Source of the DNA: Rhodoflexus caldus
Lineage (GTDB): Bacteria > Bacteroidota > Bacteroidia > Cytophagales > Thermoflexibacteraceae
NCBI RefSeq assembly: GCF_021206925.1
Contig: NZ_JAJPRF010000008.1
Coordinates: 1-64,000, forward strand
Length of the DNA stretch: 64,000 nucleotides
Direction: 5' to 3'
This document shows, in pieces, positions 17,879 through 21,751 of the stretch. Position numbers and translations under genes: made by a program. Every line of letters begins with the position of its first letter. Positions within the stretch are counted from its first letter, which is position 1. Under the pieces are notes generated by a model. That model saw only the letters and a list, made by a program, of their open reading frames with translations, did not search any database and was not told where the DNA came from.

Positions 17879-18238
17879 ATGTTTGATAGTCTTATTAAAT
17901 ATCTGGAAATCAACATTGAACTTGTCAAGCTGGACATCAAGGAGATGGTCGCCAAGATGATTGTGGATGTCATTAAGCTGGTAGTGGTTGGTTTTTTGTC
18001 AAGCATGGCACTCATCTTTTTAAGCATCGCATTGGGTTTGTGGCTCGGCGAAATAACCGGCAGCATGATTCAGGGGCTTGGCATTGTAGGCGGTTTGTAC
18101 CTGTTGTCTGCTGCGGTTTTCGTAGTTGCCCGCAAAAAGCTGCGTATGGTTTTTGAGAGAGTTGTTTCTAAATATATACCTGATAATCAACAGCTTATCA
18201 ACGAATTGACGCAAGAACATGAAAAATCTGAGCATTGA
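17879..18238 (+). CDS. Holin-X-like small membrane protein
   Basis: A 119-residue protein: an amphipathic N-terminus (MFDSLIKYLEINIELVKLDI), two membrane helices (about 32-57 and 64-87), and a charged C-terminus. This is the layout of the putative phage-holin superfamily III (Holin-X) proteins common in Bacteroidota chromosomes. No other phage genes are near, so a lysis role is unlikely; a cell-envelope stress role is more plausible but unproven. A TATATTTG box at 17851-17858 may be its -7 element. The stop overlaps the next gene by 20 nt. Confidence 0.72.
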   Translation: MFDSLIKYLEINIELVKLDIKEMVAKMIVDVIKLVVVGFLSSMALIFLSIALGLWLGEITGSMIQGLGIVGGLYLLSAAVFVVARKKLRMVFERVVSKYIPDNQQLINELTQEHEKSEH

Positions 18239-18653
18239 TGAGCAGCGCGAGCTCCTGAATCGCCGCAAAGAGGAATATAAGCACTCTCTGACCACATCGG
18301 TTGAAGAGACCAAAGCCGAAATAGGCAGCAAACTGCAAACCATTGCCTTTGCAGCGGGGGCAGTGCTGCTGGGCTATTTAGTAGTTAAAGTGGTGGACGA
18401 ACTGACCCATAAAAAGGAAGAAGCACGTCAGCCGTCCGAACAACCGCCGGTACAAATGCCGATTTATCAGCCGCAGCCGCCGGCACAGCACGAGGCGGGT
18501 TTTTCGTTTACCAATTTTCTGAAAGAACAACTTGCATTTTTTTTAGTCAGCCTCGCCAAGGATAAAATGTACGAACTCATAGATTTTGCCCTGCACAATC
18601 TGCGCCATCATATGCCTGCCAAACCTGCACAGGAACAGGCGGAAAATGAATAA
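18219..18653 (+). CDS. Small membrane-anchored protein, unknown function
   Basis: A 144-residue protein overlapping the holin-like gene. Charged helix (1-36), one membrane helix (about 38-58, LQTIAFAAGAVLLGYLVVKVV), a Pro/Gln-rich linker (72-93), and a second amphipathic or hydrophobic helix (about 98-125). The layout resembles YtxH or DUF883-type proteins, but no signature was found. Coupling to the holin-like gene suggests that the two products act together at the membrane. Confidence 0.65.
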   Translation: MKNLSIDEQRELLNRRKEEYKHSLTTSVEETKAEIGSKLQTIAFAAGAVLLGYLVVKVVDELTHKKEEARQPSEQPPVQMPIYQPQPPAQHEAGFSFTNFLKEQLAFFLVSLAKDKMYELIDFALHNLRHHMPAKPAQEQAENE

Positions 18654-18952
18654 AAAGCATATTTGATTGCAATTATGGCAATAATGTGCTTACTTTGCCG
18701 TCAAATGCAAAGTGATACGCCTTACATTACCCTTTCCCATTTCGTGCTCGTAGCAGTACAGGCTACTCATTTGCGTATTCTCCCTGTCCGTAGGCCCTGA
18801 AAAGGGCATATTTTCTATTGCTGCATCCGTTGCGGCACATCTCCGAAGCATTGTGTCTATAAATCTGTATTTGCTGCGTAACATATTCAGCAGAACTTTC
18901 AGACACGCAATTTATTTTACCTGACTTTTCTTACTTTCAACTGTCAAAAACA
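18654..18952. other. Intergenic region (299 bp), no gene supported
   Basis: Lies between two plus-strand genes. A 64-codon minus-strand frame here has no recognisable start context, signal or domain and is treated as spurious. No clear terminator or promoter was found. Confidence 0.5.
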
Positions 18953-19666
18953 ATGGAAATTATTGTTCAAGTTGCCGGAGAACAGCACTTGGAATACGCG
19001 CAGGAAATCTGTCGCCAAATTGAGGAATCAGCCAAAGCACGCGGCACAGGCATTGCCAAGCGCGACCCGGAGTATATCAAACAAAAAATTCGCGAAGGCA
19101 AAGCCATTATCGCTTTAACCGATACAGGCGTTTTTGCCGGCTTTTGCTACATTGAAACATGGAGTCACGGCAACTACGTAGCCAACTCCGGTCTGATTGT
19201 CAATCCGGAATTTCGCCAACACGGGCTTGCCAAAAAGATTAAGGAACAAGCCTTTAACCTCTCACGCGAAAAATTTCCGGATGCCAAAATTTTCGGCTTA
19301 ACTACCAGTTTGCCGGTGATGAAAATCAACTCCGACTTAGGCTACAAACCCGTTACGTTTTCCGAACTCACCAACGACGAATCGTTTTGGAAGGGCTGCC
19401 AAAGTTGCGTGAACTATGATATTTTGACGCGTACCAACCGCAAGCACTGCCTTTGCACGGGTATGCTTTACGACCCCAAATGGGAGGAGGACAAAAAGAA
19501 AACCATTGAACCGGAAGCCAAAAAAACCTTCAAACTCAAAGAAAAAATCTACGAGCGCTGGCTGCGATTCAAGGCTTTCGTCCTTTTAAAAGACAAAGAC
19601 AAGAACAACGGAAAAAACAATCATACAAACGCTACCAAGCCTGAACCCCAAACCATCAATGCCTGA
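18953..19666 (+). CDS. GNAT acyltransferase next to argG, candidate N-acylglutamate synthase
   Basis: A 237-residue GNAT protein. Acetyl-CoA motif A lies near 85-105 (NSGLIVNPEFRQHGLAKKIKEQAF), followed by the strand segment KIFGLTTSLPVMKINSDLGYKPV. A Cys-containing segment (GCQSCVNYD, KHCLCTGM) and a basic Lys-rich tail follow. Its stop overlaps the argG start region. In Bacteroides a GNAT of this kind beside argG has been proposed as the N-succinylglutamate synthase that starts arginine synthesis. That role is inferred here from family and position. Confidence 0.78.
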   Translation: MEIIVQVAGEQHLEYAQEICRQIEESAKARGTGIAKRDPEYIKQKIREGKAIIALTDTGVFAGFCYIETWSHGNYVANSGLIVNPEFRQHGLAKKIKEQAFNLSREKFPDAKIFGLTTSLPVMKINSDLGYKPVTFSELTNDESFWKGCQSCVNYDILTRTNRKHCLCTGMLYDPKWEEDKKKTIEPEAKKTFKLKEKIYERWLRFKAFVLLKDKDKNNGKNNHTNATKPEPQTINA

Positions 19667-20861
19667 TATGAAAGAAAAAGTAATACTTGCCTTCAGCGGC
19701 GGATTAGATACATCGTTTTGTGCCAAATACCTGAGCGAAGAAAAAGGGCTGGAAGTACATGCTGCCATAGTAGATACAGGCGGGTTCAGCACCGAAGACA
19801 TGCGGCGCATAGAAGCACGTGCCCATGAACTTGGCGTAGCAAGTTTTACCTGCCTGAACGAGGTAGATAATTTTTATCGGCAGTGCATTCGCTACATGAT
19901 TTACGGCAACGTGCTGCGCAACAATACCTATCCGCTTTCGGTAAGCGCCGAACGCGTATTTCAGGCATTGGCTATTGTAAACTATGCCAAAAAAATCGGC
20001 GCACAGTATATCGCACACGGCAGTACGGGAGCCGGCAACGACCAAGTGCGCTTTGACTTGGTATTTCAGATAGCAGCTCCCGAAATTGGCATTATTACCC
20101 CCATCCGCGACTTACGCCTTTCGCGTGAAGAAGAGATTGAGTATCTGAAAAAACATGGTGTCGGTGGCAACTGGGAGAAAGCAAAATATTCTATCAATCA
20201 GGGCATTTGGGGCACAAGCGTAGGCGGTAAGGAAACGCTGACTTCGCACCTCTCTCTGCCCGAAGAAGCCTATCCAAGCCAATTGCAAACCACTGAGCCG
20301 CAGACAATTACTCTGACCTTTGAGAAAGGCGAACCTGTGGCACTCAATGGTGAAAAACACGGGGGCAGCGTTGGGGTGATTCAGGCATTGAACGCACTCG
20401 GCAGCCGCTATGCCATTGGCCGCGATATCCACATTGGCGATACCATTATCGGTATCAAAGGTCGCGTAGGTTTTGAAGCACCTGCTGCGCTGATGACCAT
20501 TAAAGCGCATCATGCCCTTGAAAAACACGTACTTACCAAATGGCAGGCCTACTGGAAGGAGCAGTTAGGCAATTGGTACGGCATGATGCTGCACGAAGGG
20601 CAGTACCTCGAGCCGCTGATGCGAAACATTGAAACCTTCCTGCAAGACACCCAACACAACGTAAGCGGCGAAGTTTATATCAAACTGATGCCGTATCGCT
20701 TTGAAATTCAGGGCATCAGCTCCCCGCATGACCTTATGGCATCTAAATTTGGCCAATACGGCGAAATGAACAACGCATGGACAGGCGACGACGTAAAAGG
20801 ATTTACCAAGATTATCGCTAACCAGATGAAAATTTATTTCCAAGTCAATGGCCAAAGCTGA
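19659..20861 (+). CDS. argG: Argininosuccinate synthase
   Basis: Joins citrulline and aspartate using ATP, the penultimate step of arginine synthesis. The 400-residue length is normal. The ATP-binding N-type motif AFSGGLDTSF lies at about 10-19. Further family segments are AHGSTGAGNDQVRFD near 117-131 and SINQGIWGTSVGG near 174-186. The ATG at 19659 overlaps the GNAT stop; an ATG at 19668 would remove three residues and is equally possible. The stop overlaps xseB by 14 nt. No argH or argC is in the window. Confidence 0.96.
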   Translation: MPDMKEKVILAFSGGLDTSFCAKYLSEEKGLEVHAAIVDTGGFSTEDMRRIEARAHELGVASFTCLNEVDNFYRQCIRYMIYGNVLRNNTYPLSVSAERVFQALAIVNYAKKIGAQYIAHGSTGAGNDQVRFDLVFQIAAPEIGIITPIRDLRLSREEEIEYLKKHGVGGNWEKAKYSINQGIWGTSVGGKETLTSHLSLPEEAYPSQLQTTEPQTITLTFEKGEPVALNGEKHGGSVGVIQALNALGSRYAIGRDIHIGDTIIGIKGRVGFEAPAALMTIKAHHALEKHVLTKWQAYWKEQLGNWYGMMLHEGQYLEPLMRNIETFLQDTQHNVSGEVYIKLMPYRFEIQGISSPHDLMASKFGQYGEMNNAWTGDDVKGFTKIIANQMKIYFQVNGQS

Positions 20862-21048
20862 AAAACTGACATACGAAAAAGCGTTGGAAGAACTGCAAGC
20901 GATTCACAACGCCTTGGAAAACGATGAAATAAGTATTGATGAACTCTCTGCAAAGGTGGAGCGAGCCTACGAATTGCTCCATTTTTGCAAAGAACGCCTC
21001 CGTGCTACCGAAGCACAATTAGAACAACTAATGAAAGAAAATGAGTAA
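20848..21048 (+). CDS. xseB: Exodeoxyribonuclease VII small subunit
   Basis: A 66-residue helical protein with the family pattern LTYEKALEELQAIHNALENDEISIDELSAKVERAYELLHFCKERL. It forms the multi-copy small-subunit helices on the XseA catalytic subunit, which degrades single-stranded DNA. The large-subunit gene xseA is not adjacent, as would be usual. Overlaps argG by 14 nt and comB by 8 nt, so translation is probably coupled. Confidence 0.92.
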   Translation: MAKAEKLTYEKALEELQAIHNALENDEISIDELSAKVERAYELLHFCKERLRATEAQLEQLMKENE

Positions 21049-21751
21049 CCCCCTTGTTGAAATTTGTCTCTCGCCCGAACTGCTGCATTTGCATGAACTA
21101 AGCGGCCGCACGGTTGTTGTTGCCGATATTTTGCGGGCTACCTCCTGCATGGTGGCCGGACTGGCAACGGGCATTGCAAGCATTACGCCCGTCGCTTCTT
21201 TGGAAGAAGGCCGAGCACTGATGGCACAGGGCTATATCGGTGCAGGCGAGCGCGACGGTAAACAGGTTGAAGGATTCCACATGGGCAACTCTCCTTTCAG
21301 TTATATGGAACCTTACCTGAAAGGTAAAAAAGTAGTAACCACTACTACTAACGGCACTCAGGCCATCCAAAAATCGCGGGCGGCAGCGCAAATCGTCATC
21401 GGGGCGTTTTTGAATCTCTCCGCCGTGGCTGCGCATGTAAAAGCAGCCGGCAGGGATGTCGTTATTGTTTGTGCTGGATGGAAAGGCAAGGTTAATTTGG
21501 AAGACACTCTGTTTGCAGGTGCGCTGGCACGCAAGCTGGAAGGCTTTTTTACGTGGGAAGACGATGCTATACTTGCTGCAAGCGAGCTGTATGCCAATAT
21601 GCAAATGGATTTGCACGCACACATCAGCCGCTCATCTCATTATCAACGGCTTGCAAAGCTGGGCATTAAAGAAGACATTCGCTTTTGCTTAGAAATAGAC
21701 CGCTTTGATGCAGTACCCGTACTTGAAGGCAATGAGATAGTGGTCAAATAA
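21041..21751 (+). CDS. comB: 2-phosphosulfolactate phosphatase family protein ComB
   Basis: A 236-residue member of the ComB family, with segments VVVADILRATSCMVAGLATG (near 25-44), GAGERDGKQVEGFHMGNSP (68-86), KKVVTTTTNGTQAI (96-109) and NLEDTLFAGALA (150-161). The characterised enzyme removes phosphate from 2-phosphosulfolactate in coenzyme M synthesis. Bacteria without coenzyme M also carry it; a link to sulfonate or sulfonolipid metabolism in Bacteroidota is possible but unproven. Last gene of the GNAT-argG-xseB-comB overlap cluster. Confidence 0.88.
   Translation: MSNPLVEICLSPELLHLHELSGRTVVVADILRATSCMVAGLATGIASITPVASLEEGRALMAQGYIGAGERDGKQVEGFHMGNSPFSYMEPYLKGKKVVTTTTNGTQAIQKSRAAAQIVIGAFLNLSAVAAHVKAAGRDVVIVCAGWKGKVNLEDTLFAGALARKLEGFFTWEDDAILAASELYANMQMDLHAHISRSSHYQRLAKLGIKEDIRFCLEIDRFDAVPVLEGNEIVVK

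Follow-up and report, generated by a model that had tools for sequence, protein, structure and literature searches.

What does the GNAT-family acyltransferase encoded directly ahead of argG in Rhodoflexus caldus do, and, if it acylates glutamate at the entrance to arginine synthesis, which acyl group does it transfer? A sequence-only reading of the locus had put it forward as a candidate N-succinylglutamate synthase. The window, that is, the whole stretch of 64,000 nucleotides analysed here, spans positions 1 to 64,000 of contig C8 in a genome of 3.96 Mb (40 contigs, completeness rating 100%).

The GNAT-argG pair

Open reading frames and Pfam matches place the GNAT gene at 18953..19666 on the plus strand (ATG start, 237 residues) and, together with the TIGR00032 model, argG at 19659..20861 on the same strand (ATG start, 400 residues). 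The argG product carries two argininosuccinate synthase domains (Pfam, E 2.7e-42 and 7.4e-36) and scores 274.5 bits against TIGR00032, above the cut-off of 268.2. With its start at 19659, ArgG overlaps the GNAT by 8 nt; since a second in-frame ATG lies at 19668, 1 nt past the GNAT stop codon (19664-19666), the overlap depends on the start codon. The two genes are directly adjacent on one strand whichever ATG is used. Thus, the earlier statement that the GNAT overlaps argG stands as to adjacency, with its coordinates confirmed, and as to overlap only if ArgG begins at 19659. A gap of 299 nt (18654..18952, plus strand) separates the preceding open reading frame (18219-18653) from the GNAT and is the presumed place of a promoter. 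On the 3' side of argG, positions 21041-21751 encode a 2-phosphosulfolactate phosphatase (PF04029, E 6e-77) that may act in sulfonate or sulfonolipid metabolism.

The GNAT matches nothing but itself within its own genome, and its Pfam and NCBIfam matches are to generic GNAT families only (25.2 bits against Acetyltransf_1, PF00583, cut-off 20.7). Classical ArgA joins an amino-acid-kinase domain to a NAT domain. By Pfam, the GNAT is a single-domain protein in which the kinase-like domain is absent, and TIGR01890, the model of classical ArgA, is not among its NCBIfam matches up to E 0.1. A search of solved structures by sequence returned weak matches with PA4794 on top and no N-acetylglutamate synthase in the lead. 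Such generic family matches, and PA4794 as the best sequence match among solved structures, would suit an unrelated acetyltransferase, acting on a protein, an antibiotic or a polyamine, that stands before argG by chance. An AlphaFold2 model built on a 30-sequence alignment (mean pLDDT 89.2) was searched against the PDB with Foldseek: rank 1 is 9cr5 (PA2271), a GNAT superfamily protein without a stated function, rank 2 is the N-acetylglutamate synthase 2r8v (Neisseria), and the N-acetylglutamate synthases 5yo2 and 5yge (Mycobacterium) and 3e0k (Vibrio) are in the ten best rows. The GNAT thus has its fold in common with the short N-acetylglutamate synthase of M. tuberculosis (Rv2747, 5yo2/5yge) and with the NAT domain of ArgA (2r8v, 3e0k), and presumably acts on glutamate in the same way chemically, but it is just 13-22% identical to them in the Foldseek rows. 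The matches of the model agree with glutamate N-acylation and are taken as support only, because the GNAT fold is generic. The sequence of the GNAT by itself does not reveal the acyl donor.

Arginine loci in relatives

We asked how far the pair is conserved. In a sample of 296 genomes from the phylum, 126 match the GNAT at E <= 0.001; two marginal ones (G081 and G156, 28-29% identity) were set aside, leaving 124 genomes with a clear GNAT. Among the genomes listed, matches come from 11 other members of the order and from 56 of 61 additional members of the class; the misses that were listed, to which 150 unlisted ones must be added, include no member of the order. Gene neighbourhoods were read from a different set, also of 124, consisting of GNAT sequences other than that of the window (29 relative loci, 80 named-record loci and 15 pieces; 123 distinct). 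The 80 named-record loci were the highest-ranking among 592 matches and are therefore weighted toward close relatives; the closest of them, from an uncultured Cytophagales MAG, has a GNAT 99% identical to ours followed by an argG 98% identical.

An argG gene lies within 300 nt downstream of the GNAT in at least 92 of the 124 sequences, a lower bound since some pieces are too short for the neighbour to appear. This count includes 67 of the best 80 of 592 named-record loci; argG is downstream in 22 of the 29 relative loci, and among the 72 named-record loci with at least 600 nt past the GNAT, five have no argG. An adjacency kept this often is not due to chance: on this ground the GNAT as a chance neighbour of argG was rejected, and the adjacency argues against an unrelated acetyltransferase. 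So does the operon order in relatives, where five further arginine genes follow. The full series GNAT-argG-argC-argD-argF'-argB-argE' is found in order in 13 of the best 80 of 592 loci and the same order minus argE' in 15; the run ends at argF' in nine, at argD in 12 and at argC in six, while 12 have GNAT-argG only, 11 the GNAT only and two lack argD, many of the 80 loci ending at a contig edge or at the limit of the 6-kb flank. Five Pedobacter loci hold the cluster as far as argB. As the cluster is whole in many relatives, the R. caldus genome, in which the arginine genes lie apart on contigs C2, C8, C9 and C17, retains only its first pair.

A GNAT beside argG as an enzyme of the succinylated route is of a kind already known in the phylum. 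In excerpts of the published work, BT3761 of Bacteroides thetaiotaomicron is 'probably N-succinylglutamate synthase', with support from mutant fitness (PMC7311316); the same role is proposed for it in PMC9026213, where the family is named ArgA2. As excerpted, both papers have BT3761 mutants needing arginine and give BT3761-BT3760 in Bacteroides as N-succinylglutamate synthase plus argG. This arginine-specific fitness of BT3761 also speaks against an unrelated acetyltransferase in the window. The earlier claim that Bacteroidota often succinylate by means of a dedicated GNAT is in line with these excerpts (PMC7311316, PMC9026213). The first of the two sources adds, in the parts consulted, that arginine synthesis in most Bacteroidetes appears to run by the succinylated route and that in one Pedobacter and one Echinicola strain most candidate arginine genes are needed in arginine-free medium (PMC7311316). 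The succinylating gene was still described as unidentified in 2015 (PMC4490483, in excerpt). Within the collection of papers searched, the phrase 'N-succinylglutamate synthase' was found in PMC7311316 and PMC9026213 only, and the excerpts consulted contain no enzyme assay of the acyl donor of the ArgA2/BT3761 family. BT3761 also serves, in a single mention in the text seen, as the anchor in a figure on 3-ketoglycoside hydrolases (PMC9765024).

The R. caldus GNAT resembles BT3761 in lying beside argG (there judged by locus number; PMC7311316, PMC9026213) and in belonging to a genome that, like that of BT3761 as excerpted, lacks a candidate for ArgA or ArgJ (in R. caldus, by searches for ArgJ and for the long ArgA type) and has a succinylornithine carbamoyltransferase (SOTCase). 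It differs in that the arginine genes of R. caldus are split over contigs with GNAT-argG alone together. In a Bacteroides-type genome (G230), the GNAT is 54-56% identical to that of the window, the genes run GNAT-argG-argC-argD in order, and 288 of 316 residues of its carbamoyltransferase ArgF' are identical to chain 1js1. This gene order agrees with BT3761 (GNAT), BT3760 (argininosuccinate synthase) and BT3758 (aminotransferase) as given in the excerpt of PMC7311316. A further counterpart is Cabys_1732, which, like our gene, stands first in an arginine locus with argG next (argAGCBEH of Caldithrix abyssi; PMC5317091, in excerpt). Unlike our reading of the window GNAT, that excerpt calls Cabys_1732 an N-acetylglutamate synthase, citing unpublished results (PMC5317091), and BT3761 is more than 50% identical to it (PMC7311316, in excerpt). 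This favours a reading with acetyl-CoA as the donor, N-acetylglutamate as the product of the GNAT and acetylated intermediates in the later steps.

The arginine genes of the genome and the acyl group

A complete acetyl route, with argA or argJ, had been set against the succinylated one in the sequence-only reading. A search of the R. caldus genome for ArgJ (PF01960) gave no match, while the same search was positive in 10 of 14 control genomes. For classical ArgA (TIGR01890, cut-off 202.85 bits) the genome has nothing above the cut-off, its single match being the argB gene at 58.5 bits; this negative covers the long ArgA type alone, because the model rises above its cut-off in just one of the 14 controls. 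An acetyl route by way of classical ArgA or ArgJ was rejected on these results, an outcome in favour of the sequence-only reading, and an unrelated role for the GNAT would leave the genome with no first-step enzyme found in the searches for ArgJ and long ArgA.

The other steps have candidates. Above their family cut-offs are argB (contig C2, 202 bits), argC (C9, 297 bits) and argH (C9, 317 bits). Five argD-like aminotransferases were found, none reaching the family cut-off. One of them, on C9, is 53-71% identical to argD of the named-record loci, except for three Parapedobacter loci, where the match is just 30-31% and on the other strand; the other two leading candidates reach only 25-38%. One of eight M20 matches, a protein on C2 (L131), has an M20 counterpart of 53-65% identity in 19 named-record loci; the counterpart lies 3' of argB on the same strand in 15 of them and upstream on the other strand in four. 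L131 is the likely desuccinylase (ArgE'), because its counterpart accompanies argB in the arginine loci of relatives.

Two carbamoyltransferase-like genes are present, on C17 (126.2 bits) and C1 (125.2 bits), both below the OTCase cut-off. Against the PDB, the C17 protein is closest to chains 1js1 and 2fg6 (E about 3e-126), as against E 6.6e-57 for 3l02, the best chain of an N-acetylornithine carbamoyltransferase (AOTCase); we take 1js1 and 2fg6 to be the SOTCase entries of B. fragilis and 3l02 to be the AOTCase entry of X. campestris, in agreement with PMC4581275. The C1 protein was rejected as ArgF', the C17 protein matching itself alone in the genome and being SOTCase-like, and by inspection the C1 gene is provisionally taken as pyrB.

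To distinguish the two types, we used a residue rule drawn from excerpts of PMC4581275 and PMC7311316, by which AOTCases have Glu92, Asn185 and Lys302 (X. campestris numbering) and SOTCases A/S/P/V/Q, P and V/I/E (PMC4581275). The corresponding residues of the C17 ArgF' are A91, P182 and V281, the SOTCase state at three of three. The placement was checked on the aligned AOTCase chain, in which the last two chosen columns hold N and K and lie 93 and 210 from the first, matching the published numbering. The succinylornithine carbamoyltransferase that was to be sought elsewhere in the genome is thus present on C17. NCBIfam model NF003384 names the same protein (L004 1489-2439) 'N-acetylornithine carbamoyltransferase' (306.9 bits, cut-off 288), a name that speaks for acetylated intermediates. 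Acetyl-CoA is moreover the usual donor of GNATs, which favours the same reading. The substrate label of NF003384 is probably wrong for this succinyl-type enzyme; the N-acetylornithine label was likewise misapplied in Swiss-Prot to BT3717, a SOTCase, according to GapMind (PMC7311316, in excerpt). An acetylated intermediate would, besides, face a carbamoyltransferase of the wrong type at all three discriminating residues.

We then looked for ArgF' in 80 genomes, namely 75 from among the 124 that clearly match the GNAT, plus five of the same class listed without a match. An ArgF' of the AOTCase/SOTCase type is present in all 75 (43% identity or higher across 274 or more of 316 residues), 13 of these proteins being just 43-49% identical to the ArgF' of the window's genome. 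By contrast, none of the five GNAT-lacking genomes has it, two of them showing weak pieces of 26-36% identity, and these five are a small, weak control because they are possibly plain arginine auxotrophs. This co-occurrence of 75/75 against 0/5 tells further against an unrelated acetyltransferase, which we regard as extremely unlikely.

At the first discriminating position, the 75 ArgF' proteins have A (34), V (21), T (9), Q (7), S (2), G (1) and P (1), the nine T and the one G being outside the printed A/S/P/V/Q. The second position holds P in 72 and A in three, and the third V in 33, I in 23, E in 17 and K, the acetyl state, in two. In the 39 ArgF' proteins of the named-record loci, the first position is V (24), A (9), T (3), S (1), I (1) or P (1), the three T and the one I again falling outside the list, while K stands at the third in three proteins. 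Glu, the acetyl-type residue of the first position, is found there in 0/75 of the GNAT-bearing genomes, which weighs against acetylated intermediates, and the full acetyl set E/N/K is absent from all 75 and 39 proteins. As there is no acetyl-type ArgF' among the 75 genomes, the collection yields no contrast of GNATs by acyl type. Gln, which is isosteric with the acetyl-type Glu, occupies the first position in G072, G166, G151, G227, G250, G274 and G286; it is counted as succinyl type in the excerpt of PMC4581275.

The proposal that the GNAT-argG arrangement fits the succinylated route is supported by the SOTCase-type ArgF', the lack of matches to ArgJ and above-cut-off classical ArgA, the synteny and the co-occurrence. 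The GNAT of the window is almost certainly an N-acylglutamate synthase, its action on glutamate being read from this context. Its acyl group is very probably succinyl, as judged from the partner enzymes, making it an N-succinylglutamate synthase of the ArgA2/BT3761 type; production of N-acetylglutamate from acetyl-CoA is improbable. Counted against the succinyl reading are the acetyl label of Cabys_1732, the weak sequence matches to solved structures with PA4794 on top, the dispersal of the pathway genes over several contigs and the scores of all argD-like genes below the family cut-off. A candidate is present for each step. In the proposed route, the GNAT would cap glutamate with a succinyl group as the start of arginine synthesis, ArgB, ArgC and ArgD would carry the product to N-succinylornithine, ArgF' would carbamoylate it, the M20 deacylase (ArgE') would take off the succinyl group, leaving citrulline, and ArgG, encoded after the GNAT, would complete arginine with ArgH. 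Arginine synthesis in Rhodoflexus caldus most likely follows the succinylated route, and a gene annotated merely as GNAT can now be named.

Conserved residues of the GNAT

The residues that are invariant across the 30 aligned sequences and conserved in 122-124 of the 124 GNATs collected include R30-A35, R37, E68, W70, N78-G80, T117, T118 and N126. Just past the GNAT core, the alignment also revealed four cysteines, C149, C152, C166 and C168 (CxxC-x13-CxC, codons within 19397..19456, plus strand), that are invariant both in the 30 sequences and in 124 of 124 GNATs. A Pfam search with residues 140-180, the cysteine segment, returned no family. The literature search found no zinc reported with an ArgA2/BT3761-type enzyme, and no report of the four-cysteine feature in the parts of the literature covered. 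From their pattern, the four cysteines possibly form a metal site. We know of no N-acetylglutamate synthase with a metal- or redox-dependent four-cysteine site of this kind. More speculatively, a site binding a metal (probably zinc) or acting in redox might mean that in Bacteroidota the first arginine step depends on metal or redox state, an idea we hold to be rather doubtful.

In six relatives (genomes G222, G170, G245, G261, G174 and G253) there is also a second, diverged GNAT copy that shares 49-57% identity with the GNAT of the window.
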